Shown in pieces: positions 25,826 through 40,581 of a DNA stretch of 64,000 nt (within the stretch, counting starts at the first letter, position 1; each line of letters opens with the position of its first letter). The translations under genes were made by a program, and so were the position numbers. Source of the DNA: Clostridiales bacterium (GTDB lineage: Bacteria > Bacillota > Clostridia > Christensenellales > Borkfalkiaceae); the NCBI GenBank assembly GCA_015069425.1, contig SVIP01000001.1:186001-250000 (forward strand). Reading direction: 5' to 3'. Under the pieces are notes generated by a model, which ran no database searches, was not told the origin of the DNA, and worked only from the letters and a program-made list of their open reading frames with translations.

Positions 25826-27706
25826 TTAACTATTTAATTCAACTACTACGCAATCGTTTTGAGTTATTCCACTACACATTATGCCGTTATTCATAATGTC
25901 AACGCCTAAAACTTTTTCCTCGTGAAGTTTATACCTCTTTGATGGCGATACAACAGGATAAATTATAATATTGTCTTGTAAAATTTTCTTTGTAAATATT
26001 TGAATATAATTTTTTGTATAATTATTATCAAAATATTGCAAAACAGTAATATTTTCATCGTCAACCAAAAGTTTAACCATAGCATTTTTAAAGAAATTTC
26101 TTTCTTTTTTGTATTTTGATATAAACTTTTTAAGTTTTAGCTTATAGTCATTTGGTAAAGAAACCAAATCACAAGAAAAACCGATAGGACCACCTTTTAA
26201 AAACTCAAACGCATAATCGTCTGTAACTTTTGTAACGTCCGTCCAAGTTGCATTGTTACAATAAACTACTGCATCTTTAGGTACTAATTGCGTATAAATA
26301 GGCACGTTTTTACATATGCCAGTAACAAGCCATTTTTCTATCGCAAATGAAGGTACTCTTTTAACGTAATCTTTATAAATTCTCAATCCATCAATAGGCC
26401 CTTGATTATCAGTAAACCAGTAACTTTCGCAAGATTTGAATGTTTCTAAATCTAAATGTTGACCACCAGATGCACAAAATGAAACGTATAGATTTGGATA
26501 TTTTTGCCTTAAATTTTCAAAGAAGTCTCTTTGTCCCTCATAGTATTTCACAAAAGCGGAATTGCGTGCATCATAACATGCTGTAGCATTATAATCAAAC
26601 TTCATAAAGTCTAAATTATACTTTTCAATAAGTTCACAAGTCTTGTTAAAAATATACTCCCTTGCTTCAGCGTTAGCAAAGTCTAACAACTTATCCTGTT
26701 CATCTACATCAAAATAAAAATTAGGATTTTCTTTATACGCTTTAGAATTTACGTTTGCACGCTGTGGTTCCATCCACAAGCCAAATTTAATTTTTAAACT
26801 ATGTACAGCATCAGATAGTTCTTTCAATCTTCCACATAAAGCGCCATCATCATTTTCTTCCCAATCCCCTACGCTTTCACGCCATTTTAATTCTTTACCA
26901 AACCAACCTGCGTCTACTACAAAATATTCAACGCCTAACTTTGAACACTGTACAGCCTGATTATATAACGCATCAAACGAAATACCGTCAAAATTATAAA
27001 GCCAACTATTATATATAATTGGTAAAGACTTTTTTTCGTTATCTAACAACCACTTTCGTTGCATTTTATATGCGTCAAAGTCAACTGAATTAGTACCGTC
27101 AGTAATGTATATTTGCGGTAAATATAGTTTTTCACCAGGTTTAAGTTCCAACGTCAACCCCTCGTCGTTAAAACCAATTTCCACAACAGTAGCAAACAAT
27201 AAATCTTCTATAGGAACGACCTTTGCTTGTATTTTCCAACGACAATTTGGTAAGACGTTAAAAGTTATAACTCGTGAAGATAAGTCATCTTTTATAGAAA
27301 CAAACGGCGTTGCGCCTGCACAACTACGAGAACCAAAATTTTCTGCAACAATGCTTGTATTTAACTTTTGCCAACTGCCAACGTTTTCATTTTGCCAAGA
27401 ATTTCTTTGTGTATATACACTATAATTATTTCCATAAAACGCAAATCTTGAAGAAATTTTTGATAATATAATTGTTTTATCGCTATTATTAACAATAAAA
27501 TCTTTTCTTACTATAATTTCATCAGATTTAATAAATTCGGCAACAATATCTAGGTTGTTTTTTTGATAATGATAAATTTCACTTTCATTTGAAATTTTGT
27601 TTTCTTTTAAACAACTTTCGTTAATAATAAAATCCTTTGAAACAACGTTGAACAAACCGCCAAAAGAAACATTTGAATTTTTAATATATATGTTTTTAAT
27701 CTTCAT
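25826..27706 (-). CDS. GH36-family alpha-galactosidase
   Basis: Motifs of GH36 are clear: VVDAGWFGK with a following GDWEEN segment, the nucleophile Asp371 in MKFDYN, the SCASGGQHLD block, and the acid/base Asp433 in YWFTDN. The start was moved to 27706, where GAGGTAATA precedes the ATG; a longer frame to 27727 has no ribosome site. Of about 626 residues, it lacks a signal peptide, so it acts in the cytoplasm on imported alpha-galactosides (or N-acetylgalactosaminides). It follows nagA in the operon. Confidence 0.9.
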   Translation of the reverse strand: MKIKNIYIKNSNVSFGGLFNVVSKDFIINESCLKENKISNESEIYHYQKNNLDIVAEFIKSDEIIVRKDFIVNNSDKTIILSKISSRFAFYGNNYSVYTQRNSWQNENVGSWQKLNTSIVAENFGSRSCAGATPFVSIKDDLSSRVITFNVLPNCRWKIQAKVVPIEDLLFATVVEIGFNDEGLTLELKPGEKLYLPQIYITDGTNSVDFDAYKMQRKWLLDNEKKSLPIIYNSWLYNFDGISFDALYNQAVQCSKLGVEYFVVDAGWFGKELKWRESVGDWEENDDGALCGRLKELSDAVHSLKIKFGLWMEPQRANVNSKAYKENPNFYFDVDEQDKLLDFANAEAREYIFNKTCELIEKYNLDFMKFDYNATACYDARNSAFVKYYEGQRDFFENLRQKYPNLYVSFCASGGQHLDLETFKSCESYWFTDNQGPIDGLRIYKDYVKRVPSFAIEKWLVTGICKNVPIYTQLVPKDAVVYCNNATWTDVTKVTDDYAFEFLKGGPIGFSCDLVSLPNDYKLKLKKFISKYKKERNFFKNAMVKLLVDDENITVLQYFDNNYTKNYIQIFTKKILQDNIIIYPVVSPSKRYKLHEEKVLGVDIMNNGIMCSGITQNDCVVVELNS

Positions 27707-27751
27707 TATTACCTCTTTAAACAACAAATTAAAACAAGCTCTTAAAAGGCC

Positions 27752-28897
27752 TTAAATCACCTTTACTCCTGCGACAAAGGCACTACTAATATTAATATCG
27801 TCATCAAAAACAACTAAGTCTGCATCTTTCCCTTTTGCAATCTCACCTTTATTTAGTTTCAATATTTCATTAGGAACCTTAGTTATCATCTTAACAGCAG
27901 TTATTAAATCCTTACCACACTCGTTAATTAGGACTTTAACAAGTTTGTCTGCAGTTGCCACGCTACCACAAAAAGCGCTTCTATCTTTAAGCTTACAAAC
28001 GCCATCTTCTACTATATATTCAGTGCCATCTGAAACACCCGCAACAGAGTTTGTCCCCGCAATAGCCATACTGTCAGTTATTAAAGCCACTTTATCAGTT
28101 CCCTTTATTTTAATAATCATATTTATAAGTTCAGGAGGCAGATGTTTGCCATCTGCTATTATTTCTACAAATAAATCGTCCTCTAAAAAAGCGGTTTCAA
28201 TAACTCCAAGTCGTCTAAATCCATTCTCTCTAGTAACTGTTGAAGTACAAGAATATAAATGCGTTACTAAGTTACAACCATTATTTATCGCAATTTTCAT
28301 ATCTTGATATATTGCATCCGTATGACCGGCAGATGCAATTATATTATTTTGAGTTAAAAATTTACAAAACGTTCCGTTTTTATCCCTTTCAGGAGCAAAA
28401 GACCAGCGTTTAATATATTTACCGAATTCATTAATGAGTGATTCATAATCCTCTTTAATTGGTTCAGTTATAAAATCTGGATACTGTGCGCCACATTGCC
28501 TAAGAGAAAAATAAGGTCCCTCAATATGCGCCCCAATAATATTTGACTTGCATTTTTTTGATTCTATTGCTTTTGCAATATTCATTACTGAAGATTTAAT
28601 TTCATCAATCGGCAAAGAAGATATTGTTGGTAAAATGGACGTAGTACCGTGTAACAAATGAAAATCGCAAGCATTAATAATATCTTCGCTATTTCTATTA
28701 GAAAAAGAATAGCCACCAGCACCATGAGTATGAATATCGATAAACCCAGGAGAAACATATTTACCCGTATAATCATAAAAAGACTGCGAATCAATATCTT
28801 CCTTACTAACGGAATAAATTTTATTATCAACAATATAGACAAAGCCGTCAAAAAGACCTTTTTCGGTAATTATTTTATCGCTTTTAATCTTAATCAT
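27752..28897 (-). CDS. nagA: N-acetylglucosamine-6-phosphate deacetylase
   Basis: Metal and substrate motifs of NagA are present: DIHTHGAG (His pair, ~56-58), HIEGPYF (Glu ~126), SAGHTDA, VTHLYSC and LITDSMAIAG. The ATG at 28897 follows AAGGA; a TTG two codons earlier was rejected. It removes acetate from GlcNAc-6-P in the cytoplasm, feeding the nagB product three genes upstream. It sits between the GH63-like gene (stop and start three bp apart) and GH36. The length of 382 residues is normal. Confidence 0.93.
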   Translation of the reverse strand: MIKIKSDKIITEKGLFDGFVYIVDNKIYSVSKEDIDSQSFYDYTGKYVSPGFIDIHTHGAGGYSFSNRNSEDIINACDFHLLHGTTSILPTISSLPIDEIKSSVMNIAKAIESKKCKSNIIGAHIEGPYFSLRQCGAQYPDFITEPIKEDYESLINEFGKYIKRWSFAPERDKNGTFCKFLTQNNIIASAGHTDAIYQDMKIAINNGCNLVTHLYSCTSTVTRENGFRRLGVIETAFLEDDLFVEIIADGKHLPPELINMIIKIKGTDKVALITDSMAIAGTNSVAGVSDGTEYIVEDGVCKLKDRSAFCGSVATADKLVKVLINECGKDLITAVKMITKVPNEILKLNKGEIAKGKDADLVVFDDDINISSAFVAGVKVI

Positions 28898-28899
28898 AA

Positions 28900-31509
28900 T
28901 CAATTCCTTGTAATTTTAACGTGTCCTTCGTGTCCAGGTAATAATAAATAATATAAACAACTATTTACCTTAACACACTCGGTTAACTTTTCATTAATGT
29001 AAAAATTATAATTATTTTCATCTAAACAAATCAAAATCATAGATTTATCCCTTTCTTGAATATAATCAAATTCTATATTAGATAAATCAAGTTCAAGATT
29101 TTTGTTAAATATAGATGTTAGAAAACCTGTTGAAATTGAGCCTTTATTAAAATAAGCCTTATACCATAATAACGGCGGAGTAGAAAGCCCTGAAAATTGA
29201 TGGAAACCGCAACCTCTCCCCGTTTCAATTGAAAAGTTTTCAGAAGAGCGATAACATTCATCCATCTCTTTTTTCCAAACATTAAGTGCTTTAAACGCAA
29301 TCTCCGTTGCTAACTCAGTTTCACAATGGTCTAATAACGATTTCCATAATATCCACTGATGCGGAAACCAAATATTACCATTCCAATAACCTTTAGAAGA
29401 ATAATAAGGTGCTCTTAAATCCACAACGCTTACGCCATATTCAGTCATTAAGCCATTTTTTATATTGTCAATTATTTTTGATGACTGCTCATCTGTCGTT
29501 ATGTTGGAAATATAAGGATAAATACCATCAAATCCACTATTAAACAATGTTTCTTTATCATGCTTAAAAAAACATTTAGGATTACCGTTTTTATCGTGAA
29601 CTAAATATTGAAAATAGCCAGAACTTTCATCATAACAGTTTTCTTGAATTGCTTTACTAAAATAAACAATATCATTATCGAAGATAGCAACGTCATCTTT
29701 TTTATCAAATAAAATTGCTATTTTCCTTAAAATTTTTGCAATTAAAATTGTTACGGCGGTGGTTATAACAGGCGTAGTATTTTCAGGACAAGCGCCATCA
29801 AGATTTTCAATACCATTAAATCTATTGTCCAAAGCTTTCTGTGGCGGATAGTCATCCCAACCACCCGAGTTATAAACAAGATGCCAGCATTTTAATAGTC
29901 CAGACTTCATTTGAGAAGAGTCGTTTTTTAAATTAGAATAGAACATATAATAACTCTTCATTAGCGGATATAATTTTTCAAGTTTGTCTTTCTCGTTAAA
30001 ATTATTGATTAAATCATCATACAAAAAAACTTGAGTCGGCATTATAGTACCGCTAAAGACAAATGGAGAATGAATATCGTTTTCTGGTGTTAAATAAGTA
30101 TTTAAACACTCATACGCACGATTAAAATCAATAGTTGCAAGCCCCAAACCTATAAAACCATTATCCCACTGATACAAAGAATTCCATAACCTACCCGGAG
30201 TAGAGTGAACGATAAAATTTCTTCTGTTATATATGGGATAAACGACGTTCAACAAGGTATTATAAGCCAACATATTTTGTGAAAAAGCAAAATCCTTACC
30301 ATCTTGGTTTGTGTTGAACTTAAAAACACTTTGAGCGTTTGAGAAAAATTGCTTACTAGGTTTATCGTTTGAAATATAATAATTAATAATTTTATTACTT
30401 CTTGAGCCAACTGAAATACAATCGGTATGCAAATTTTGATAAATTTTGAAAGTGGGATTAGCACTAGGAATATTATTAAACAAAGAATTGTGTATATCTT
30501 TTTTTAATGTAATACCAATATTATCCGTATAATACTTTCTAAACATTGTCGGTTCAGTATCCCACGAAATAAAATATGAATTTAAAACATTGTTATACTC
30601 TACTTGCAAACCGTTTTCAATATTATTTAATATAGGGTTTACATCATATTTAAATGGTTCAAACTTTGCGTTGCCAACGTTGTTGCCAACTATCAAACAA
30701 TCTAAAGTAAATTTATTTCCGTTAGAATAAACTTTAATTTCATCAATCAAAGTTTCATCTAAATTAAAGACATAAAAACCAAAACCCTCTGTTTTACATA
30801 AATCAATAAAATGCTTCTTACCTAAAACTTCCAAAGCTATGGTAATATCATTATTGCTTTTATATCTTAAACCGATAGAATTAGTTTTTATTTTGCAAAA
30901 TTTATACGATAAAAAATCCGTACTATCATGCCCAAAAAACTTATCACTTATAGCCGTTCCCTTATTTGTTGAATTATTAACGAACGCCTCACCCAAATAA
31001 AAACCGTCTTCTGCAATTTTTTGGCCAATTGAAATACTTTGATAATCTACAGCATCAACGTAAATCATTGAATCATCAATAAAGTATTCGTCAATTTTTT
31101 TATAACCAACAATATCGTAATAATAGAAATTTGTTGGATAATTTAAGGAAAGACAAACGTCTAAAGATAAACTCTGCTCAAAATCAGAATTATTAACGAA
31201 GTTGCATTGGACAGAAATTTTATTATCATCTTTAATGCTAAAGGCAATATCGCAATAAACTTTGTCCTTCCACTCTAGTTCATAACGGTAAACAAAATAA
31301 GTAAGGTCACAGTTAGCGCCCCACATTTTAACGCCGGCATCAACCATATTAATTGGGTCACACAAAACCGTTTGTCGTTGAATACCAGGGAAAAATTCCA
31401 CGTTAAAAGTAGCGCCTTTATTTTCGTCAGCTATATGGCAAACGCCTAAAAACTCCTTATTATAGGGTCCCCACTTTCCTGTTTTTATTCCGTATTCTTT
31501 ATCAATCAT
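28900..31509 (-). CDS. GH63/MGH1-like (alpha/alpha)6 glycosidase
   Basis: The 869-residue cytoplasmic protein has a beta-rich N-terminal half and an (alpha/alpha)6 barrel in its C-terminal half. Barrel motifs include GGWDDYPPQ (~548; likely catalytic acid region), YWNGNIWFPHQW (~708) and a late FHQFSGLSTPP (~768), as in GH63 and mannosylglycerate-hydrolase-like enzymes. Trehalase and glucosidase relatives share these motifs, so the sugar is not certain. Its position between nagB and nagA suggests action on the same glycan, such as alpha-mannosyl or alpha-glucosyl residues. Confidence 0.8.
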   Translation of the reverse strand: MIDKEYGIKTGKWGPYNKEFLGVCHIADENKGATFNVEFFPGIQRQTVLCDPINMVDAGVKMWGANCDLTYFVYRYELEWKDKVYCDIAFSIKDDNKISVQCNFVNNSDFEQSLSLDVCLSLNYPTNFYYYDIVGYKKIDEYFIDDSMIYVDAVDYQSISIGQKIAEDGFYLGEAFVNNSTNKGTAISDKFFGHDSTDFLSYKFCKIKTNSIGLRYKSNNDITIALEVLGKKHFIDLCKTEGFGFYVFNLDETLIDEIKVYSNGNKFTLDCLIVGNNVGNAKFEPFKYDVNPILNNIENGLQVEYNNVLNSYFISWDTEPTMFRKYYTDNIGITLKKDIHNSLFNNIPSANPTFKIYQNLHTDCISVGSRSNKIINYYISNDKPSKQFFSNAQSVFKFNTNQDGKDFAFSQNMLAYNTLLNVVYPIYNRRNFIVHSTPGRLWNSLYQWDNGFIGLGLATIDFNRAYECLNTYLTPENDIHSPFVFSGTIMPTQVFLYDDLINNFNEKDKLEKLYPLMKSYYMFYSNLKNDSSQMKSGLLKCWHLVYNSGGWDDYPPQKALDNRFNGIENLDGACPENTTPVITTAVTILIAKILRKIAILFDKKDDVAIFDNDIVYFSKAIQENCYDESSGYFQYLVHDKNGNPKCFFKHDKETLFNSGFDGIYPYISNITTDEQSSKIIDNIKNGLMTEYGVSVVDLRAPYYSSKGYWNGNIWFPHQWILWKSLLDHCETELATEIAFKALNVWKKEMDECYRSSENFSIETGRGCGFHQFSGLSTPPLLWYKAYFNKGSISTGFLTSIFNKNLELDLSNIEFDYIQERDKSMILICLDENNYNFYINEKLTECVKVNSCLYYLLLPGHEGHVKITRN

Positions 31510-31521
31510 AAAACACCTAAA

Positions 31522-32277
31522 TTATAATAGTGCAGAACTTTGGTCATCTAAATAAAGTTTTGCATTTTTATGCAAACGCAAAATTGACGCAGGACAATGT
31601 TCGTCAATGCTTCCATTAATAGTTTCGTAAACAGCCTTATCTTTGTTTTTAGCAGGTACAATGCAAAAAAGATTACCACCATTAAACAAAGTAGGTACAG
31701 TTAAAGTAAGGGCGTGAGTAGGCACCAGTTCAATAGAAGCAAAGCATCCATCGTTGACCTGTTGCTGTCTACAAATGTTGTCTAATTCAACGACCTTAAT
31801 AGGTTTATTGTCTTTAAAATCCGCAACGTGTGGGTCATTAAAAGCAATATGACCATTCTCTCCAATACCCATTATAACTAAATCAATTGTATTTTTCAAC
31901 AATAACTCTTGATATCTTTTTATGTTATCATCCGTATTGTCAGAATAAGCAATATAATTAATGCTTTTAAATGGAACCTTGTCAAAAATGGCGTTTTTCA
32001 AGAAATTACCAAAGCGTTGCGGAGCGGATTCCTCCAATCCAATATACTCGTCCATGTGATAAGCGTTAATTTTAGACCAGTCAATGTCTTTATTTAGAAT
32101 AAGACTACCAAGAACGTCATTTTGAGAGGGTGCAGCGGCAAAAATAATATTACACTCAGATTTATTTGCCAAAACACCTTTAATACAATCACTTATATCT
32201 TTTGCAGCAGCATCCCCCATAAGTTGCCTATTTCTATATATGTAAACTTCCAAATTATCTTTTTTAAAATTTCGCAC
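31522..32277 (-). CDS. nagB: Glucosamine-6-phosphate deaminase
   Basis: The catalytic residues are present: Asp76 in YHMDEYIG, and His143 and Asp148 in GIGENGHIAFNDP. The length (251 residues) is typical. It converts glucosamine-6-P to fructose-6-P and ammonia in the cytoplasm, completing the pathway after NagA. It follows GH20 by ten bp and precedes the GH63-like gene by twelve bp, all in one operon. It contrasts with two divergent NagB-superfamily genes at 59404-61324. Confidence 0.95.
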   Translation of the reverse strand: MRNFKKDNLEVYIYRNRQLMGDAAAKDISDCIKGVLANKSECNIIFAAAPSQNDVLGSLILNKDIDWSKINAYHMDEYIGLEESAPQRFGNFLKNAIFDKVPFKSINYIAYSDNTDDNIKRYQELLLKNTIDLVIMGIGENGHIAFNDPHVADFKDNKPIKVVELDNICRQQQVNDGCFASIELVPTHALTLTVPTLFNGGNLFCIVPAKNKDKAVYETINGSIDEHCPASILRLHKNAKLYLDDQSSALL

Positions 32278-32287
32278 TTCTTCTTCC

Positions 32288-34171
32288 TCAATTAAAAAAT
32301 ATTTTTATCGCACTTATTTTACTTGCAAGCGATAAATCGTTTGCGTGTTCTATTCCACTTTCATATCCAAGTTCAGCAAAGGAATTATCAGATTTTAAAA
32401 CTTTTTCGGGATTAATAACATTTCCGCATAAAGTTTCAACGCTTGTTGGCAATCGTTTATCACCACACGTTAGAACACGAACGTTTTCAACGTATTGATT
32501 ACCCTCCCCGAATACACTCAATACAATGTATTCAACTTTCTTATTTTCTATAAGAAACTTTAATGAATAAGTTCCACAAGTATCATAAACCACAAGACTT
32601 GGCTTAAGAGTTCCAATATATATACTTTTTTCTTCTTCCCCACAATATTTTATTTTAGGTTCAGACTTAACTGTGGAAAAGCCGTCTTGAAGCATTAAAT
32701 CCAAAAACATCAATCCAGTTTTCGTATTATTTTTAATAACGTTAATAATATTATTAATTAAATTATTATAACCGTTGTATTTTCTTTCTAAATCACCTTT
32801 GAAACTCTCAATACCATTGCGATATTTGTTCCAAAGTCTATCTAAATCGCTTTTAATTTTAGCGTATTCATCTTTAATAAATTCAAGTTTATTAATTAGG
32901 ACATCTTTATCTACACATCCCATTTCCACTTGATTGTAAAACTCTGCACCAATAGCTTGAATTTCATAATCTAGATAACAAGCCAAGATGTTGTTATAAA
33001 TATTAATATAAACGTCGTTATTACAAGAGTTCCTAAATGCCTTAAGTTTTGGCATAAAATAATCCAACTCTCGTTTTTGAATAAATTTAATCAAATAATC
33101 ACGTTCACAAAGCACGCCAAAGTTTTTATGCGAAAAGAAATGTGCAGGTAAATTTATCGTGTATAAAATTTCTGCAATTTCCTTATTTCCATCACAATAT
33201 TTGGCGAATATATTAATTGCGTCTTCACGGCTATTTATTCTACCTTGAAAGAGTGCTACGGTATATTCAATAAAGGGATACGACCCAAAATAGAAACTTT
33301 CCGAATGACACCAAGCCGTAGCGACAATACCTTTTGCATTATATTTTCTAATATAATTATTGTAGATTGAATCTACGTTATAAGTAGATGAAGAATGGTG
33401 TGAATAAACTAGCATCATGTATTCTAAACCTAGTTTATCGTAATAAGCAAAAGCATCTCTTTTTACCCTACTTGTCCAATGTCCCGGCAGTTCGTCTGCA
33501 ACAAAAACATAACTCCAACTAGTTATAATAACGTCTTTTGGCAATCTATCTGCAATGTCATAATATTCAAAAAAATCGTCATACATCATCATGCGTTTAC
33601 CAAGACTAGAAACTAGACCATGGCAAAATAGTGCGTATTCAGCAAATAAATCTGCTTTCGTTTTACCATTTTGAAGTTGCTCTTTACACCTTTCACATTC
33701 AGCAAAATCGAACGGCTCGTCAAGCCCAACGTGTATATACTTGCTATGAAATATTGTTGACACTTCAGAAATATATTTTGTTACAAACTCCTTTAATTTA
33801 GGATTAGAAACGCACGCACAAGTACCGTTTTTATAACCATCGTTAAAGCGTTTGTTTTTTCCGTCAATACATTCTGCTAAATGTTCTAATTCTTTATACT
33901 CTAAGAATTTTTCCATATGCGGAAGCACTTCAAAACAAGGAATAACGTCTAAGCCAATACTTTCTGCATAATTAACAATTTCGGACATTTCTTCAATAGA
34001 ATATGTATCTTTTTCATTAAAAAACCAAGTGCTTTCAGTACGCACTGCATTTTCAAGATATAAGAATAAAGTATTATATCCACAACTTTTAATAAAGTCC
34101 GCATAACTTTTAACGTATTCAACACTTTCCTTTTGTCTAGCCAAGTCAAGTTGTGCGCAATATATTTCCAT
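32288..34171 (-). CDS. GH20-type beta-N-acetylhexosaminidase
   Basis: The barrel carries the catalytic Asp-Glu pair in HVGLDEP (151-152), followed by FDFAECERC, plus conserved tryptophans (TSWSY; TAWCHSESF). The first methionine already starts at the barrel, so the usual N-terminal GH20b domain is missing and no signal peptide exists: it is an intracellular enzyme of about 627 residues. Residues ~400-627 form a long alpha-helical then beta extension. It is the first gene of the ten-gene operon; together with nagB and nagA it would release and process GlcNAc (or GalNAc) from imported oligosaccharides. Confidence 0.85.
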   Translation of the reverse strand: MEIYCAQLDLARQKESVEYVKSYADFIKSCGYNTLFLYLENAVRTESTWFFNEKDTYSIEEMSEIVNYAESIGLDVIPCFEVLPHMEKFLEYKELEHLAECIDGKNKRFNDGYKNGTCACVSNPKLKEFVTKYISEVSTIFHSKYIHVGLDEPFDFAECERCKEQLQNGKTKADLFAEYALFCHGLVSSLGKRMMMYDDFFEYYDIADRLPKDVIITSWSYVFVADELPGHWTSRVKRDAFAYYDKLGLEYMMLVYSHHSSSTYNVDSIYNNYIRKYNAKGIVATAWCHSESFYFGSYPFIEYTVALFQGRINSREDAINIFAKYCDGNKEIAEILYTINLPAHFFSHKNFGVLCERDYLIKFIQKRELDYFMPKLKAFRNSCNNDVYINIYNNILACYLDYEIQAIGAEFYNQVEMGCVDKDVLINKLEFIKDEYAKIKSDLDRLWNKYRNGIESFKGDLERKYNGYNNLINNIINVIKNNTKTGLMFLDLMLQDGFSTVKSEPKIKYCGEEEKSIYIGTLKPSLVVYDTCGTYSLKFLIENKKVEYIVLSVFGEGNQYVENVRVLTCGDKRLPTSVETLCGNVINPEKVLKSDNSFAELGYESGIEHANDLSLASKISAIKIFFN

Positions 34172-34249: not shown

Positions 34250-37024
34250 CTACTTCTTAATCCAAGTAGGAATTCCGTCAACAATTTCCCAATACTCTTC
34301 ACTAAATGATGAGTAATCGTTTGTTGCACCTTGCATTGCCTCAACTGTCGCATATCTCGTTATACCTGCAATGTTATCATATATTGGATAACTACTTGTG
34401 CTTAAACCATAATAGTCATTTAACGGCATGTTTGATATTACGTAGTTATTTTTGAGAACGTCCGTATCGCCTACACTTTGATTCTTATCTACAATAGTTT
34501 CACTACCAAAGAATGATCCCTGATTATATTGAGCACCTAGCTTGCAAGCTAAAGCCTTAACTATTACATTTTCAATCACAGGATATTTCATACCACCATC
34601 AACAGTAGCAATAACTCCTCTAAAACCTGTTGAGCCATCTTCAACTTGAATATATACGTTCTTTATAACTGGACGTAAAGGAACTAACGGATTAGTATTC
34701 CAATCGTATTCACGAAGATGTTTCGAACTAATTACCGCAGCGTAATCTGCAGAAACGTTTTCAAAAGCAACGTTTGCGATTACTGCAGGGTATCTGATTT
34801 GACCAAACAATGAGCCATTTATATTATCACTTGCACCAGAAACGTTAAGATTTTTAACTGTGTAACCACGACCATCAAATATACCAGTAAATATATTATT
34901 CTGTCTAATACCGCCAGAAAGGTCTAAAGTTGTTCCTACACCAATATTTGCGCCTAAAGCATAAACACCATTTAAATCTTCTTGCGCTTTAAATAACTTT
35001 TCAAATTCTGTCTCATTGTCAATTACTTGACTGTATACTTTTACGTTAGTTAAAGTTGTTGTGCCTTTTTTTGAAGTAACCTTAACTGATATTGCAGGAA
35101 CTGCATCTTCAAACGTTGTTACGTATGATAAGTTGTCACCCGTCAAGGTTACTCGTTTCGTTGCGTTAATATTTGATGCTGTTATAGTTAATTCAGGGAG
35201 CACACCATCTGTTACTGCAAAGTTAACACCGTTAATTTCAATTGCGGTAATATCTTTTTCTTCAAATCCTAAACCACTTACGTCTAACTTTTTAGCACTT
35301 AAGTCAAATACTCTTTCCTTAGCATCTATTTCAGGAATAGAAGTCGTATTATTCCAAGCAGGAATTCCACTATCGGTATTCCAATAATCTTCACTAAATG
35401 ATGAGTAATCGTTTGTTGCACCTTGCATTGCCTCAACTGTAGCATATCTCTTTATGCCTGTATAGGTATCATATTCTGCAATACCCCAATAGTTATTTAA
35501 CTCTAAATTAGATATTACGTAGTTGTTTTTAAGAACACTTGTGTCTCCTGAGCTTTTTTCAACAAACCAGTCGCTTCCAAAGAAAGACCCTACATTTTCG
35601 TTAGCACCACCACGGTCACATTCTAACGCTTTTACTACAACGTTTTCAATTACTGGATAGAATGCAGATTGCACATCTTTTGTTGCAATAACTCCTCTAA
35701 AACCTGTTGAGCCATCTTTAACTTGAATATAGACGTTCTTTATAACTGGACGTTGTGGTACTGCACTACCAGTTGACCAATCATACATATTTTTTGTTAT
35801 AAGTTTATTACTAATTACGGCAGCGTAATCTGCGGTTACATTTTCAAAAGCAACGTTTTCAATTACTGCAGGGTATTTGATTTGACCAAATAATGAACCA
35901 TTTTTATTATCACTTGTGCCAGATACGTTAAGATTTGTTATAGTATATCCACAGCCGTCGAAAGTACCGGTAAATAAGCTATTTTGTCTAATACCGCCAG
36001 AAAGATTTACAGATTCAGCATCGATATTCTTTGCAAGCTTGTAATATCCATTTAATTCCTCATCAGGAGAATCAAAAATTGTTTTCAAATCCTCAGCACT
36101 GTCAATTATGCTTATGCACTTAACAGGAATTCTCTTTACGTTGCAGTTTTCATCGAATACAGAAAGATAAGCATCTTCACCAGATTCAACTTCGCCCACA
36201 CCTTCTAAAGTTAATACGTCTTGGCTAGCCTTTAACGTAACGGGTTTACCCTTCCATGCATAAGTAACGTCACTTTCTGCTTTATATCCTTGAAGTTGTC
36301 CACTTAAAACATCATAATATACCGTTTCATCAGATTCGGTTATGTTGCCAAGATACTGACCAATTAATTGGCTATCTGTCACATGTCCGTCGATTACAGC
36401 GGCGTCCATAATAGCACGCATAGAACGATCGGCTGTGCCACCATAGCCCTCCTTAACCTCTCCATTAACCTCTCCATATACTTTATAGAATGGTCTTGCT
36501 GTCAAGTCCATTTTAAATGCTTGTCTTAAGAGAGCTGCATCATCTTTTGTTTTAAGGTCTTCGTTGTTTTTAATGGCATCTAACATTTTATCAATATCAT
36601 ACATTACTGCTACTTGATATTCTGCATAACCGTCTTTAAACTCAATTTTATCTGAAATGTCAGAGTTTCCATTTCCTTTACTTAAGATAGGTAAAACTTC
36701 GGGGAAACTAGCGTTCAAAGCTTCAATGTTATCAATATCTTCAGTTGGCGCTATATACGCACCGAAATCAATCTTAGCGCCTTGACCATTAGCTTCAATT
36801 AAACTATTATACAAGCCCTCACCAACTACGATATTGTATCTTATTCCCGCAACTGTATCGTCAGTTCTAATTTGTGCACCAGTTACATAAAAATCTTTAC
36901 TCAATTCACCACTAGCACTAACTTTTGTCATATTCGGTGATAATAAAGTAATACCGAATAATACTACACAGGAAAAAAACGAACATAGTAATATCGTTAA
37001 AAATTTATTTTTGCCTTTAATCAT
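34250..37024 (-). CDS. Secreted GLUG-like repeat protein
   Basis: The start is the ATG at 37024, preceded by GGAGG; an upstream in-frame ATG at 37057 lies inside the small gene before it. A signal peptide ends near KVSASGE. A domain follows that begins GAQIRTDD and AGIRYNI, like the last domain of the protein at 1322-3475. Two near-identical modules (period about 364 residues) then carry GLUG-like FDGRGYT / SLFGQI repeats. The protein ends at a plain lysine tail with no sorting motif. It is probably an extracellular glycan-binding or adhesin-like protein, co-expressed with the small gene. Confidence 0.78.
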   Translation of the reverse strand: MIKGKNKFLTILLCSFFSCVVLFGITLLSPNMTKVSASGELSKDFYVTGAQIRTDDTVAGIRYNIVVGEGLYNSLIEANGQGAKIDFGAYIAPTEDIDNIEALNASFPEVLPILSKGNGNSDISDKIEFKDGYAEYQVAVMYDIDKMLDAIKNNEDLKTKDDAALLRQAFKMDLTARPFYKVYGEVNGEVKEGYGGTADRSMRAIMDAAVIDGHVTDSQLIGQYLGNITESDETVYYDVLSGQLQGYKAESDVTYAWKGKPVTLKASQDVLTLEGVGEVESGEDAYLSVFDENCNVKRIPVKCISIIDSAEDLKTIFDSPDEELNGYYKLAKNIDAESVNLSGGIRQNSLFTGTFDGCGYTITNLNVSGTSDNKNGSLFGQIKYPAVIENVAFENVTADYAAVISNKLITKNMYDWSTGSAVPQRPVIKNVYIQVKDGSTGFRGVIATKDVQSAFYPVIENVVVKALECDRGGANENVGSFFGSDWFVEKSSGDTSVLKNNYVISNLELNNYWGIAEYDTYTGIKRYATVEAMQGATNDYSSFSEDYWNTDSGIPAWNNTTSIPEIDAKERVFDLSAKKLDVSGLGFEEKDITAIEINGVNFAVTDGVLPELTITASNINATKRVTLTGDNLSYVTTFEDAVPAISVKVTSKKGTTTLTNVKVYSQVIDNETEFEKLFKAQEDLNGVYALGANIGVGTTLDLSGGIRQNNIFTGIFDGRGYTVKNLNVSGASDNINGSLFGQIRYPAVIANVAFENVSADYAAVISSKHLREYDWNTNPLVPLRPVIKNVYIQVEDGSTGFRGVIATVDGGMKYPVIENVIVKALACKLGAQYNQGSFFGSETIVDKNQSVGDTDVLKNNYVISNMPLNDYYGLSTSSYPIYDNIAGITRYATVEAMQGATNDYSSFSEEYWEIVDGIPTWIKK
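34262..35000. repeat. Module repeat, copy 1 (GLUG-like)
   Basis: This aligns with 35354-36092 at an offset of 1092 bp; for example, the bases encoding SSFSE are shared around 34300 and 35393. It is an in-gene tandem repeat. Confidence 0.8.
35354..36092. repeat. Module repeat, copy 2 (GLUG-like)
   Basis: This is the partner of 34262-35000 in the same secreted protein. Identity is high but not perfect. Confidence 0.8.
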
Positions 37025-37164
37025 AAGCTTTTTTCCTCCTCTTCTGTAGCCAACCAATTTATATTATAATTACCAATCCCTAGCCTTGACGTCAATATTA
37101 CGTCTTCAAAATTTGCATGCATATAAATATCTGGTTGGACGTAAATTTTTTTGAAGTTTTTCAT
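37021..37164 (-). CDS. Small peptide gene (47 aa) coupled to secreted repeat protein
   Basis: A 47-codon frame has AAGGAG six bases before its ATG (37164). Its TGA stop overlaps the ATG of the large secreted protein by four bases (ATGA), the classic layout for translational coupling. The peptide starts MKNFKKIYVQPD, has EDVILTS in mid-peptide, and then GIGNYNINWL before an acidic tail. The last block nearly repeats GVGDFNINWL at the C-terminus of the protein encoded at 37330. It has no signal peptide. Function is unknown; layout and ribosome site make it a real gene. Confidence 0.7.
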   Translation of the reverse strand: MKNFKKIYVQPDIYMHANFEDVILTSRLGIGNYNINWLATEEEEKSL

Positions 37165-37207
37165 AAATTACTCCTTTTTAATTTTTTATATTTGCAAAAA
37201 TACTATG

Positions 37208-37274
37208 CTAAACAACAATACACTCTACACACACGTTATAATTACTATTGTGTGTGGCTATTTTTACCTCCTTT
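37208..37274 (-). other. Strong ribosome site without a normal start codon, and hairpin
   Basis: On the minus strand AAAGGAGGT (37274-37266) is followed five bases later by ATA instead of ATG (37261). The frame from that ATA runs 17 codons to TAG (37208) and contains two Cys. The same region can form a CACACAC/GTGTGTG hairpin. It may be a decayed small gene or a non-canonical start. Confidence 0.3.
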
Positions 37275-37429
37275 ATATTTTTATATTGCATTTAGCATAA
37301 AGCCACGTTATTTAAGTTTCCTTTTGTTATTAAGACACTGCTTTTAACCAATTTATATTAAAGTCACCAACACCAAAATCTGTCGGCAACGGTGGTAATA
37401 TCGGGTCGTCTTCAAGATCGCCTCCCCAA

Positions 37430-38524
37430 ACAGGTATTCCACCGTCAACCACTGTCCAACAATAGTTAAACGTAGAATAGTCATTTCCCGCTGCTCTCAT
37501 TGCTGTAATACTGTCATATCTCTTAATATCTCCAAAAATATATGCCTCTGCATTCTTAAACGTCGTTATATACTCTCTTGATATCAAATAACAGTCATTT
37601 GCAACTATTGAATCTTTAGTTAAATAATCAGTATATCCGATAAATGCGCCTTTTGCGGTTGTTGTATCGTCTCCCGTTATATTTCCCGTATACTCTACAA
37701 TTACGTTGTTTAACCTTACGTGTCCTTTTGTTGTATTAGGTCCATGACCTACTATGCCATAGAAATCTGTGGTTTCTTCTGATACTTTCACGTATACGTT
37801 ACTTATCATCGGCGCTGGATATCCGCCAAAATCACATAAGTTATATCCTGCACTTGCTGCTATTACCGAAGAGCCGTTTGCCGTTACGTTAACTATCCCT
37901 AAATTTCTTACTACTGCATTTGCTGACATAGAGCCAAAAAGTGAACCTATTTTGCTAGTCGACGATGAAATGTTAAGATTGCTTATCGTATATCCCATAC
38001 CGTCAAATATACCAGTAAATATTTGATGTTCTCTCTTCGCACCAGTTAGTGTTATCGTGCTTGCATCAATATCATTGCTCAATGCATAATACCCACCTAA
38101 CGCTCCTGACTGTCCGAAAAATGCCTCAAGTTCATCAGGTGTACTAATTACGTCGCTATAAACGTGTACGTTATTAAGAATAAAATACCCATCATTTGTG
38201 TAAATTTTAAACTTTAATGCATCAAAATATTTTCCGTCTGCACTTTTTGTTAGAACTATAGGTTCTTCTATACCTCTTATTGTCAATTGGAGAGTGTATT
38301 CTGAATTATGTGCAAAGTTCTCAGCGCCCTTAGTTGAGTGCAATAGAGTCATAGACGGGAACACACCGTTAGGTGTTTCGAGTTTAGAGCCATTAATTTC
38401 AACAGCGACTATTTCAGATTGTGTTACGTTAATTCCAGTTAAATCAAGCGTTCCATCAGTTGTCGAATATGCTCTATTCATATTATCAACAGGAATGGTA
38501 GACGTACCAGAAAGTTTCTTCCAT
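37430..38524. repeat. Tandem module repeat, copy 1
   Basis: This ~1.1-kb unit matches 38525-39457 at a 1095-bp offset; several stretches of over 100 bp are nearly identical. Confidence 0.85.
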
Positions 38525-39457
38525 ACTGGTATTCCACCGCCAACCACTGTCCAACAATAGTTAAACGTAGAATAGTCATTTCCCGCTGCTCTCATTGCTG
38601 TTATACTGTCATATCTCTTAATATTTCCAAAAGTATATGCTTCTGCATTATTAAACGTCGTTATATACTCTCTTGATATCAAATAACAGTCATTTGCAAC
38701 TATTGAAACTTCAGTTAAATAATCAGTATATCCGATAAATGCGCCTTTTGCTGTTTTTGTATCGTCTCCCGTTATATTTCCCGTATACTCTACAATTACG
38801 TTGTTTAATCTTGCATGTCCTTTTGTTGCATTAGGGCCATGACCTACTATGCCATAGAAATCTGTGGTTTCTTCTGATACTTTAACGTATACGTTACTTA
38901 TCATCGGCGCTGGATATCCGCCAAAATCACATAAGTTATATCCTGCACCTGCTGCTATTACCGAAGAGCCGTTTGCCGTTACGTTAACTATTCCTAAATT
39001 TCTTACTACTGCATTTGAATCCAAAACACCGAATAACGAACCCTTATTTGACGTTGCTGTTGAAATGTCAAGATTACTTATCGTATATCCCATACCGTCA
39101 AATATGCCCGTAAACATTTGATTTCCTCTCTTCGCACCAGTTAGTGTTACCGTACTTGCATCAATATGTTCACCTAATGCATAATAACCGTTCAATTTTC
39201 CTTTTTGCCCAAAAATAGAGTATAAATCTTGAACGTCTGTTATCAATTGACTAAACACTTGAACGTTTTTAAGTTCGTATATATAACCGCTGTCCATATA
39301 TAAAGTCATACTAACCGCCTCAAACCCTCTTTTATTTGAAAGTTCAGTTAAGGTTATAGGATTTAAAAGTCCTTCAACTGTTAGTTGCAAAGTGTATTTA
39401 TCGTTATGTTCTAAATTCGCAGCGCCCTCTGTTGAATGTACCAATTCCATCTTTGGA
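38525..39457. repeat. Tandem module repeat, copy 2 (truncated)
   Basis: This is the partner of 37430-38524. Its homology stops near 39457, at the head-to-head junction. Confidence 0.85.
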
Positions 39458-39475
39458 AATTGTTTAAAGGTGATT
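39457..39475. other. Head-to-head truncation junction
   Basis: At this point a minus-strand repeat-protein gene and a plus-strand beta-helix gene both lose their N-terminal coding parts. No promoter, ribosome site or signal peptide exists for either. A deletion, an inversion endpoint or an assembly join would all give this picture. Confidence 0.7.
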
Positions 39476-40581
39476 ACATAGGTCAAAACAGAAATTTAAA
39501 AGATGGGCTTTATGCATCCGATGAGCAGTCATGGGCGTACTCATTTGGAGCAATGCGTTTTAAAAATGCGGATAATTGTAGCATTTATGATTGTGAATTT
39601 TATGCATTAGGCTTATATGCTATAGAATTAATCTCAGCTTGCCAAAACATTAGAGTGGAAAAATGTGACATTCATGATTTAGGTGGAGGTGGCATTAAAG
39701 TTCTCGGTGCAGACAAAAGCCAAGCAAAAGAACAGCAATGTACTCACAACGTGTTCAGTAACAATCATATTTACCGTTGTGGTAGACGCTATTACGCATC
39801 TTGCGGTATATTATTGTGTCATTCTTCTTATAACGAAATTTCAAACAATACTGTACACGATATAAATTATACAGGTATTTCAGTTGGCTGGATATGGGGA
39901 TATGACGACAGTAATTCTCACTCAAATTTAATAAAGCATAACCACGTTTACAACATAGGTATGGGTCCCCTTTCAGACATGGGTGCAATATATCTTCTAG
40001 GGAAACAACCAGGTACTGTCGTACAATACAATATAGTGCACGACGTCTTATCTAAACACGGCGGTACGTATGGGTTATATGCAGATGAAGGAACTTCTTA
40101 CGTAACCTTTGAAAACAACGTAGTATATAACACAATGCTTGCTTCTATGCACGTACACCTAGGCAATGAAAATGTAATAAGAAACAACGTCTTTGCTTTT
40201 GGAAAACGAAACATTATAAACGTATCTATGCGTGAAAACCATAACATCGCACTGTTTGAAGAAAACGTATTTATTGCAGAAGAAGAAAAAATTTATGGTA
40301 ATTCTTATAAAGATAACGTTTATCCAAACCCCTCTTTCTATTCAGATAATAATTTAATAATTGGTCTAAATAAAAAGCCACTCATTACAAAAATAGGCAC
40401 GTCTAGCAAAGAAATTTATTTAGACAAATGGAAGTCCGTATATGGTTTAGATAAAAATAGTAAAACCGTAATATTTAAGCAAAATTTACACGAATATTTT
40501 GACAATATACCATTTTATATCGAAAAAATTGGGATAGAAGAAACAGTAAAAAAAGTATTGAAAAAATTTAAGAATAATTAA
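39470..40581 (+). pseudogene. Right-handed parallel beta-helix protein, 5' end lost
   Basis: From GDYIGQNRNLKDG onward the frame matches beta-helix glycan-processing proteins (GH141-like or pectate-lyase-like): repeated asparagine-ladder turns such as NCSIYDCEF, SYNEISNNTVHDI, HSNLIKHNHVYNIG and NNVVYNTM. The nominal ATG at 39436 lies in sequence that is homologous to the opposite-strand repeat protein and has no ribosome site, so the true N-terminus is missing. Family members are usually several hundred residues longer. The C-terminal part appears intact, ending at a terminator. Substrate is unknown. Confidence 0.72.

Follow-up and report, generated by a model that had tools for sequence, protein, structure and literature searches.

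A 47-residue peptide encoded just ahead of a large exported protein in a Clostridiales genome is a probable LPP-like RiPP precursor

The window analysed here is a stretch of 64,000 nucleotides (positions 186,001 to 250,000 of contig SVIP01000001.1, assembly GCA_015069425.1) from a Clostridiales bacterium of the family Borkfalkiaceae. On its reverse strand a 47-codon gene stands directly before the gene of a 924-residue repeat protein, and it probably encodes the precursor of an LPP-like, phosphorylated and leader-cleaved ribosomally synthesized and post-translationally modified peptide (RiPP) that would be made together with that exported protein. The peptide gene starts with ATG, an AAGGAG ribosome site ends 6 nt 5' of this start, and the peptide's TGA has the four bases ATGA in common with the ATG of the 924-residue gene, just as the original prediction had described. 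That prediction had also called the larger protein secreted and the peptide free of a signal; the 924-residue protein indeed begins with a hydrophobic signal-like segment ('signal-like' refers throughout to a simple hydrophobicity rule of our own rather than to a signal-peptide predictor), and by reading of the sequence the peptide has none. The GAGGAGG Shine–Dalgarno sequence of the 924-residue gene lies 10 nt 5' of its ATG within GAAGAGGAGGAAAAA, which encodes the acidic tail of the peptide, EEEEK. A GIGNYNINWL block followed by an acidic tail had been singled out in the peptide, and both are present, but because GAAGAGGAGGAAAAA also holds the partner's Shine–Dalgarno sequence, the overlap of the two genes accounts for the tail at least in part.

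Relatives of the peptide are widespread in its taxonomic family. Used by itself as the query, the window peptide had matches at E ≤ 1 in 46 of the 301 family genomes; many fell inside unrelated long open reading frames (ORFs), but six fell on short frames that immediately precede genes whose products have signal-like N-termini. A profile seeded with seven sequences, the window peptide and six short-ORF relatives, matched 103 of the 301 genomes at E ≤ 0.5, covering 14 of 18 genera with up to nine matches per genome, some of which are due to chance at this threshold (for example, one inside a long ORF in genome G022). We aligned 90 peptide loci, most but not all of the best-ranked profile matches. 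Tyr is kept in 89 of the 90 members, Pro in 75, Asp/Glu in 88 and Ser in 89, counts that depend on the search in that the motif was already present in the seed profile. The Tyr-to-Ser spacing is 18 residues in 34 members and 19 in 33, with the remaining 23 unmatched by a simple pattern. The window leader has Y8-V-Q-P11 (YVQP...DVILTS), and its Ser26 stands at Tyr8+18. The C-terminal part is variable; all 89 cores that were read contain an aromatic residue, and the charge averages -4. A Shine–Dalgarno-like sequence lies 5' of 87 of the 90 members. Pooled ratios of non-synonymous to synonymous polymorphism (pN/pS) were 0.21, 0.44, 0.12, 0.41 and 0.34 in five groups of close relatives, from which the window peptide is absent because no relative is close enough to it; selection had been named as a check on the frame, and for these relatives it is purifying. 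The precursors are scattered in the genomes, with up to 18 copies in one of them (G514).

Peptide genes and genes for exported proteins recur as neighbours. A gene with a signal-like N-terminus lies within 60 bp downstream of 65 of the 90 peptides, compared with 59 of 265 other genes in the same loci, so relatives do stand before such proteins, as the proposed profile search was meant to establish. The other 25 peptides comprise nine that follow a signal-like gene, 11 that follow a gene without a detected signal (some of these starts may fall outside the stretch read or be mis-called) and five with neither. Gaps to the 67 downstream neighbours within 60 bp range from -10 to 51 and measure 9–17 in 41 cases; the -4 gap of the window occurs in 6. 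The adjacency is thus conserved and the exact four-base overlap is not: where conservation of both the frame and the overlap had been proposed as a check, frame and adjacency are kept and the overlap is not.

The 924-residue protein and many other partners share an N-terminal domain of the general form GASVR...GIRF...RSM (window copy, GAQIR..GIR..RSM, at 36125-37024, reverse strand), without a Pfam match above cut-off in the 924-residue protein. Searched in 151 genomes, a profile of this domain found it in 65 at E ≤ 1e-8, with up to 15 matches per genome; a second family member in the window genome, on contig C6, lies just 5' of a gene that carries it. We then reversed the direction of the test, taking as the starting set the 72 best-ranked domain matches beginning within 10 residues of the domain start and leaving out contig-edge matches and one gene with a known broken peptide frame. 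A leader-type peptide (E < 0.05) lay directly upstream of 50 of these 72 genes, always on the same strand and at gaps of -14 to 36. At least 16 of the 72 had turned up before, in the search with the peptide; without them the proportion is 34 of 56. None of 452 control genes had a same-strand peptide at a gap of -20 to 40; six had a match farther away or on the opposite strand, and five of those six are known family peptides. A structure model of the 924-residue partner, made from two sequences, was unusable (mean predicted local distance difference test (pLDDT) score 41). The conserved motif, the purifying selection in relatives and the reverse test together support the view that the 47-codon frame is a real, translated-looking gene of a diverse peptide family. 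They also favour the earlier idea that production of the peptide is tied to that of an exported protein. The roles suggested for it at the time (chaperone, secretion helper, regulator or signal) remain conjectural, and the evidence points to a possibility not raised then, a RiPP-type precursor for a RiPP recognition element, an HprK-like kinase and a signal-peptidase-like protein.

Features of the peptide locus in the window
Feature	Position	Strand	Basis
47-residue LPP-like precursor peptide gene (candidate)	37021..37164	(-)	ORF list, profile searches, family alignment
Ribosome site AAGGAG of the peptide gene	37171..37176	(-)	read from sequence
Leader motif from Tyr8, in a YxxP of RRE-binding type, to Ser26 at Tyr+18, the predicted phospho-acceptor	37087..37143	(-)	family alignment; spacing equals LppA Y-16 to S3 (PMC13381572)
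YNINWL motif of the core	37051..37068	(-)	similar motif in the tail of the 718-residue ORF and in relatives
GAGGAGG Shine–Dalgarno sequence of the 924-residue gene, within the codons of the peptide's acidic tail	37035..37041	(-)	read from sequence
924-residue exported repeat protein (partner), N-terminal GAQIR..GIR..RSM domain, start overlapping the peptide stop by ATGA	34250..37024	(-)	
718-residue ORF with a relationship to the repeats of the partner and the C-terminal tail DFGVGDFNINWLKAVS; 5' part cut off at ~39467	37330..39486	(-)	

No named family had been known for the peptide. This holds for Pfam and NCBIfam, where neither the window peptide nor the two large proteins (of 924 and 718 residues) gave anything above cut-off, and fails for the literature, in that the leader is built like that of the LPP precursors. 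The LPP RiPPs were described from Bacillota by Popov et al. in May 2026 with the lpp cluster of Paenibacillus alginolyticus (PMC13381572). In that cluster LppB, a RiPP recognition element (RRE), binds the YxxP leader of LppA with the aid of N33 and D70, the HprK-like LppK adds phosphates to core Ser3, 18 residues after the Tyr, and the SipW-like peptidase LppS cleaves the leader after T-1; the role of the LPP peptides is given there as unknown (PMC13381572). No other paper describing these peptides was seen in the results and passages of the open-licence literature searched. The present system has in common with LPP the YxxP leader, a Ser at Tyr+18, small precursors with variable C-termini, a discrete RRE with equivalents of N33 and D70, an HprK-like kinase and an archaeal-type signal-peptidase-like (SpI) protein. 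It differs in that the precursors are scattered and multi-copy and, within this taxonomic family, paired with genes for exported proteins.

The candidate maturation genes form a recurrent set of an HprK-like kinase, a PqqD protein and the SpI protein, with an MsbA-like ATP-binding cassette (ABC) exporter added in some genomes. In the window genome (G000), the PqqD and kinase genes lie side by side on contig C12, the SpI-like gene on C11 and the peptide on C1. The PqqD protein of G000 is above the Pfam cut-off, and the residues equivalent to LppB N33 and D70 are kept in all 15 PqqD proteins, that of G000 included, that were recovered by pattern from 22 loci. Every one of the 44 genomes of the genus has a PqqD match, and every one matches the SpI profile, two members of which match TIGR02228 below its cut-off. 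The kinase gene adjoins PqqD in all six same-genus loci examined (L107-L110, L120 and L123, with only a piece called in L108). A structure model of a kinase relative 81% identical to that of G000 (pLDDT 93) had HPr kinases as its five best matches in the PDB, at modest template modelling scores of 0.31-0.39, and phosphoenolpyruvate carboxykinases mixed with further HPr kinases as the next. In two genomes, G014 and G031, the gene that directly follows the peptide is that of the kinase, and in G011 it is that of PqqD; the ABC exporter is present in the relatives' loci L111, L117, L121, L125 and L220. The nearest named kinases include those of sheep-colon and yak-rectum Clostridia metagenome-assembled genomes (MAGs).

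Peptide and machinery also occur together across genomes. In the 301 family genomes, with the peptide called at E ≤ 0.01 and only strong PqqD matches counted (106 positive genomes, 13 weaker matches set aside), 59 had both, nine the peptide only, 47 PqqD only and 186 neither (odds ratio 26). A class-level sample of 291 genomes held 33 with the peptide, and a full-length kinase was found in 32 of these 33 versus 13 of the 258 others; when partial kinase matches are counted, the figure for the peptide-less genomes is 53 of 258. We also scanned the best 80 of 569 kinase loci with a leader model derived from the aligned set of 90, and obtained 24 matches at E ≤ 1e-3 in 20 of the 80, including Lachnospiraceae and Ruminococcus records. 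Most of these matches (22 of 24) are on the kinase's strand, with 16 loci having one within 3 kb; 45 of the loci extend 3 kb to either side of the kinase, and 10 of these contain a match.

Homology and residue spacing suggest how maturation may proceed. Tyr8 and Pro11 would be the contacts by which the PqqD-type RRE of the genome binds the N-terminal half of the peptide (YVQP...DVILTS), the HprK-like kinase whose gene adjoins that of the RRE would phosphorylate Ser26, and the SipW-like peptidase encoded elsewhere would cut the leader off, probably just before residue 24. The product would be a short acidic-aromatic peptide carrying YNINWL. Peptide and 924-residue protein would be translated in step from the same message, and the peptide most likely acts at the cell surface in the service of this protein or of its lipoprotein-like neighbour.

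Several observations weigh against this reading. Nine of the 68 peptide-bearing family genomes are without a strong PqqD match, 22 of the 72 domain-bearing genes are without a detectable peptide, and within the genus the first profile matched no peptide in 14 of 44 genomes, although each of the 14 has PqqD and SpI matches (one of them, G006, was matched by a later peptide profile). The Fisher tests of co-occurrence ignore shared ancestry, and the kinase, SpI and ABC proteins score below NCBIfam cut-offs. The neighbourhoods of the G000 genes showed neither an MsbA-like exporter nor an NTP transferase; this difference from LPP covers these neighbourhoods, no genome-wide search having been made. 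A scan for terminators found one where 0.1 were expected, with its stem at 37363-37390 (reverse strand) in the last codons of the 718-residue ORF upstream of the peptide, so this ORF may not share the peptide's transcript; peptide and 924-residue partner may form a transcript of their own. In other families of the Clostridia, the peptide lies 12-22 bp downstream of a large gene in 19 of 29 loci (L389-L417, one of which, L410, belongs to the window's own genus), and coupling to the start of a partner is therefore not general. Finally, the IxFET consensus that precedes the LPP cleavage site is absent here, the family having D-[VI]-[VI] at this position and the window peptide DVI, and the window precursor lies outside the biosynthetic cluster (C1 versus C12 and C11). 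Because the FET residues are not shared and the precursor is outside the cluster, the window peptide, as judged from its sequence, is LPP-like and not a strict LPP member.

Upstream of the peptide gene, the 718-residue ORF is 38% identical to the 924-residue protein over residues 306-922, and its tail DFGVGDFNINWLKAVS resembles the GIGNYNINWL of the peptide. A subtype of four loci (the window, G167, G258 and G089) has FN-x-x-WL at the end of the upstream exported protein and [FY]-[NE]-x-x-WL in the core of the peptide. A permutation test for tails shared with upstream neighbours was significant (0 of 200 permutations, 65 pairs), a result that owes most to these four loci, and the upstream proteins at three of them are related to one another; with downstream partners it was not (59 of 200 permutations, 34 pairs). 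These similarities are hints that the peptide and the upstream protein's tail may bind the same thing. Because the 718-residue ORF of the window has lost its start, the upstream protein with its shared tail is visible whole only in the relatives. FN-P-x-WL was rejected as a genome-wide tail signal: it had nine DNA matches in eight genomes, four within the system (three upstream-protein tails and one other peptide) and five unrelated to it.

From here it is tempting to propose that in Clostridia one RRE, kinase and peptidase set matures many scattered precursors, each made beside its own large surface or secreted protein, to which it would serve as ligand, tag or cap; core motifs of the type [FY]N-x-x-WL would recur in the tail of the neighbouring exported protein. 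We put this forward tentatively, as an idea with the odds somewhat against it. We lowered our estimate slightly because, in the 29 loci mentioned above, the large genes mostly start outside the stretch read.

The same processed phosphopeptide could instead be a diffusible signal or an antimicrobial unrelated to its neighbour, with the neighbourhood reflecting shared regulation only. We know of no pairing of prochlorosins or synechococsins with large exported proteins. Those families resemble the present one in their many scattered precursors with variable cores served by one promiscuous modification system, and differ in having Nif11-type precursors and lanthipeptide chemistry (PMC10783134). 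The variable cores and the number of copies, up to 18 per genome as with prochlorosins (PMC10783134), fit a signal or antimicrobial; the repeated pairing with exported proteins across the genera of the family, and the similar motif that the upstream exported protein has in its tail at four loci, do not, and we consider this explanation unlikely.

Tight placement beside exported proteins and acidic-aromatic C-terminal halves would also suit a peptide that stays unmodified and is dedicated to the exported protein, whether as a chaperone, as a secretion helper or against aggregation. Such a peptide leaves the near-invariant Tyr, Pro and Ser unexplained, as well as the co-occurrence with PqqD and kinase. 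Moreover, where a PqqD match is lacking, four domain-bearing genes (one each in G055 and G030, two in G129) have no upstream peptide, a count that leaves out G013, G067 and G124, also without a PqqD match; but peptides are present in G087 and G147, where PqqD went undetected. On balance, an unmodified helper seems improbable.

Still less probable is the precursor of a lasso or other ring-forming RiPP, in which the YxxP leader and a lasso-like TS junction would precede a cyclised core. YxxP leaders do bind lasso RREs (PMC13381572), and the best-scoring matches of the PqqD protein are, in NCBIfam, PqqD models of lasso type, though below cut-off, and, in the PDB, lasso B1 proteins. Paeninodin-type and rumen lasso clusters combine a [Y/W]xxP leader, a PqqD-type RRE and an HprK-like kinase, as here (PMC13381572, PMC7533575). 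They differ in two respects: the lasso B2 peptidase (PF13471) is above cut-off in 1 of the 301 family genomes and unmatched in G000, and most members are without the ring-forming core pattern, a Gly right after the Ser with Asp/Glu at 7-9 being found in 15 of 89 cores and, by reading, not in that of the window. The machinery found is a kinase and an SpI protein, as in the linear LPPs, and the lasso reading is largely refuted. That the frame serves solely to couple translation of the exported protein, the peptide sequence being irrelevant, is hardly credible: the partner's Shine–Dalgarno sequence inside the frame and the stop that overlaps its start would suit it, but the pN/pS of 0.12-0.44 in relatives and the near-invariant residues contradict it, copies elsewhere lie downstream of a large gene, and the gap of -4 is found in only 6 of 67.

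No riboswitch or other RNA element in Rfam matched just 5' of the peptide gene, the 165-nt leader folds no better than shuffled sequences (z -0.63), and a promoter scan at the locus found three candidates against 2.9 expected. That leader (37165-37329, reverse strand) has nested inverted repeats, ATGCTAAA and TTTAGCAT, around CACACAC and GTGTGTG, with AAGGAGG inside.

The N-terminal part of the 718-residue ORF is lost at about 39460-39490 of the window, where a right-handed beta-helix ORF on the forward strand (39436-40581) also seems to lack its own N-terminal part. An inversion, a deletion or an assembly chimera would each account for this break.

The peptide gene lies amid genes for the use of hexosamine glycans, encoding GH20, glucosamine-6-phosphate isomerase, GH36 and an MGH1-like glycosidase, and AraC-type regulators are encoded close by. 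Downstream of the partner, at 25826-34171 on the reverse strand, the run comprises GH20, the isomerase, an amidohydrolase that we read as NagA-type, the MGH1-like glycosidase and GH36. It looks like a hexosamine-glycan use operon, with membership judged from strand and spacing.

Two further observations concern the machinery in other genomes. In the same genus, an LPP-type cluster in G208 (contig C40; L220, 3343-9624) holds an ABC exporter, a 127-residue precursor, PqqD, SpI, an HprK-like kinase and a likely nucleotidyltransferase, this last name being our own reading. The kinase also appears in MAGs labelled Bacteroidales (L282, L286 and L290), through transfer, a wider spread or mislabelled bins.

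Relatives of LPP precursors thus recur as close neighbours of large exported proteins, several in a genome. For these unannotated peptides of about 40–50 residues, this offers a testable hypothesis, that of a phosphopeptide maturation system that may be devoted to exported proteins.

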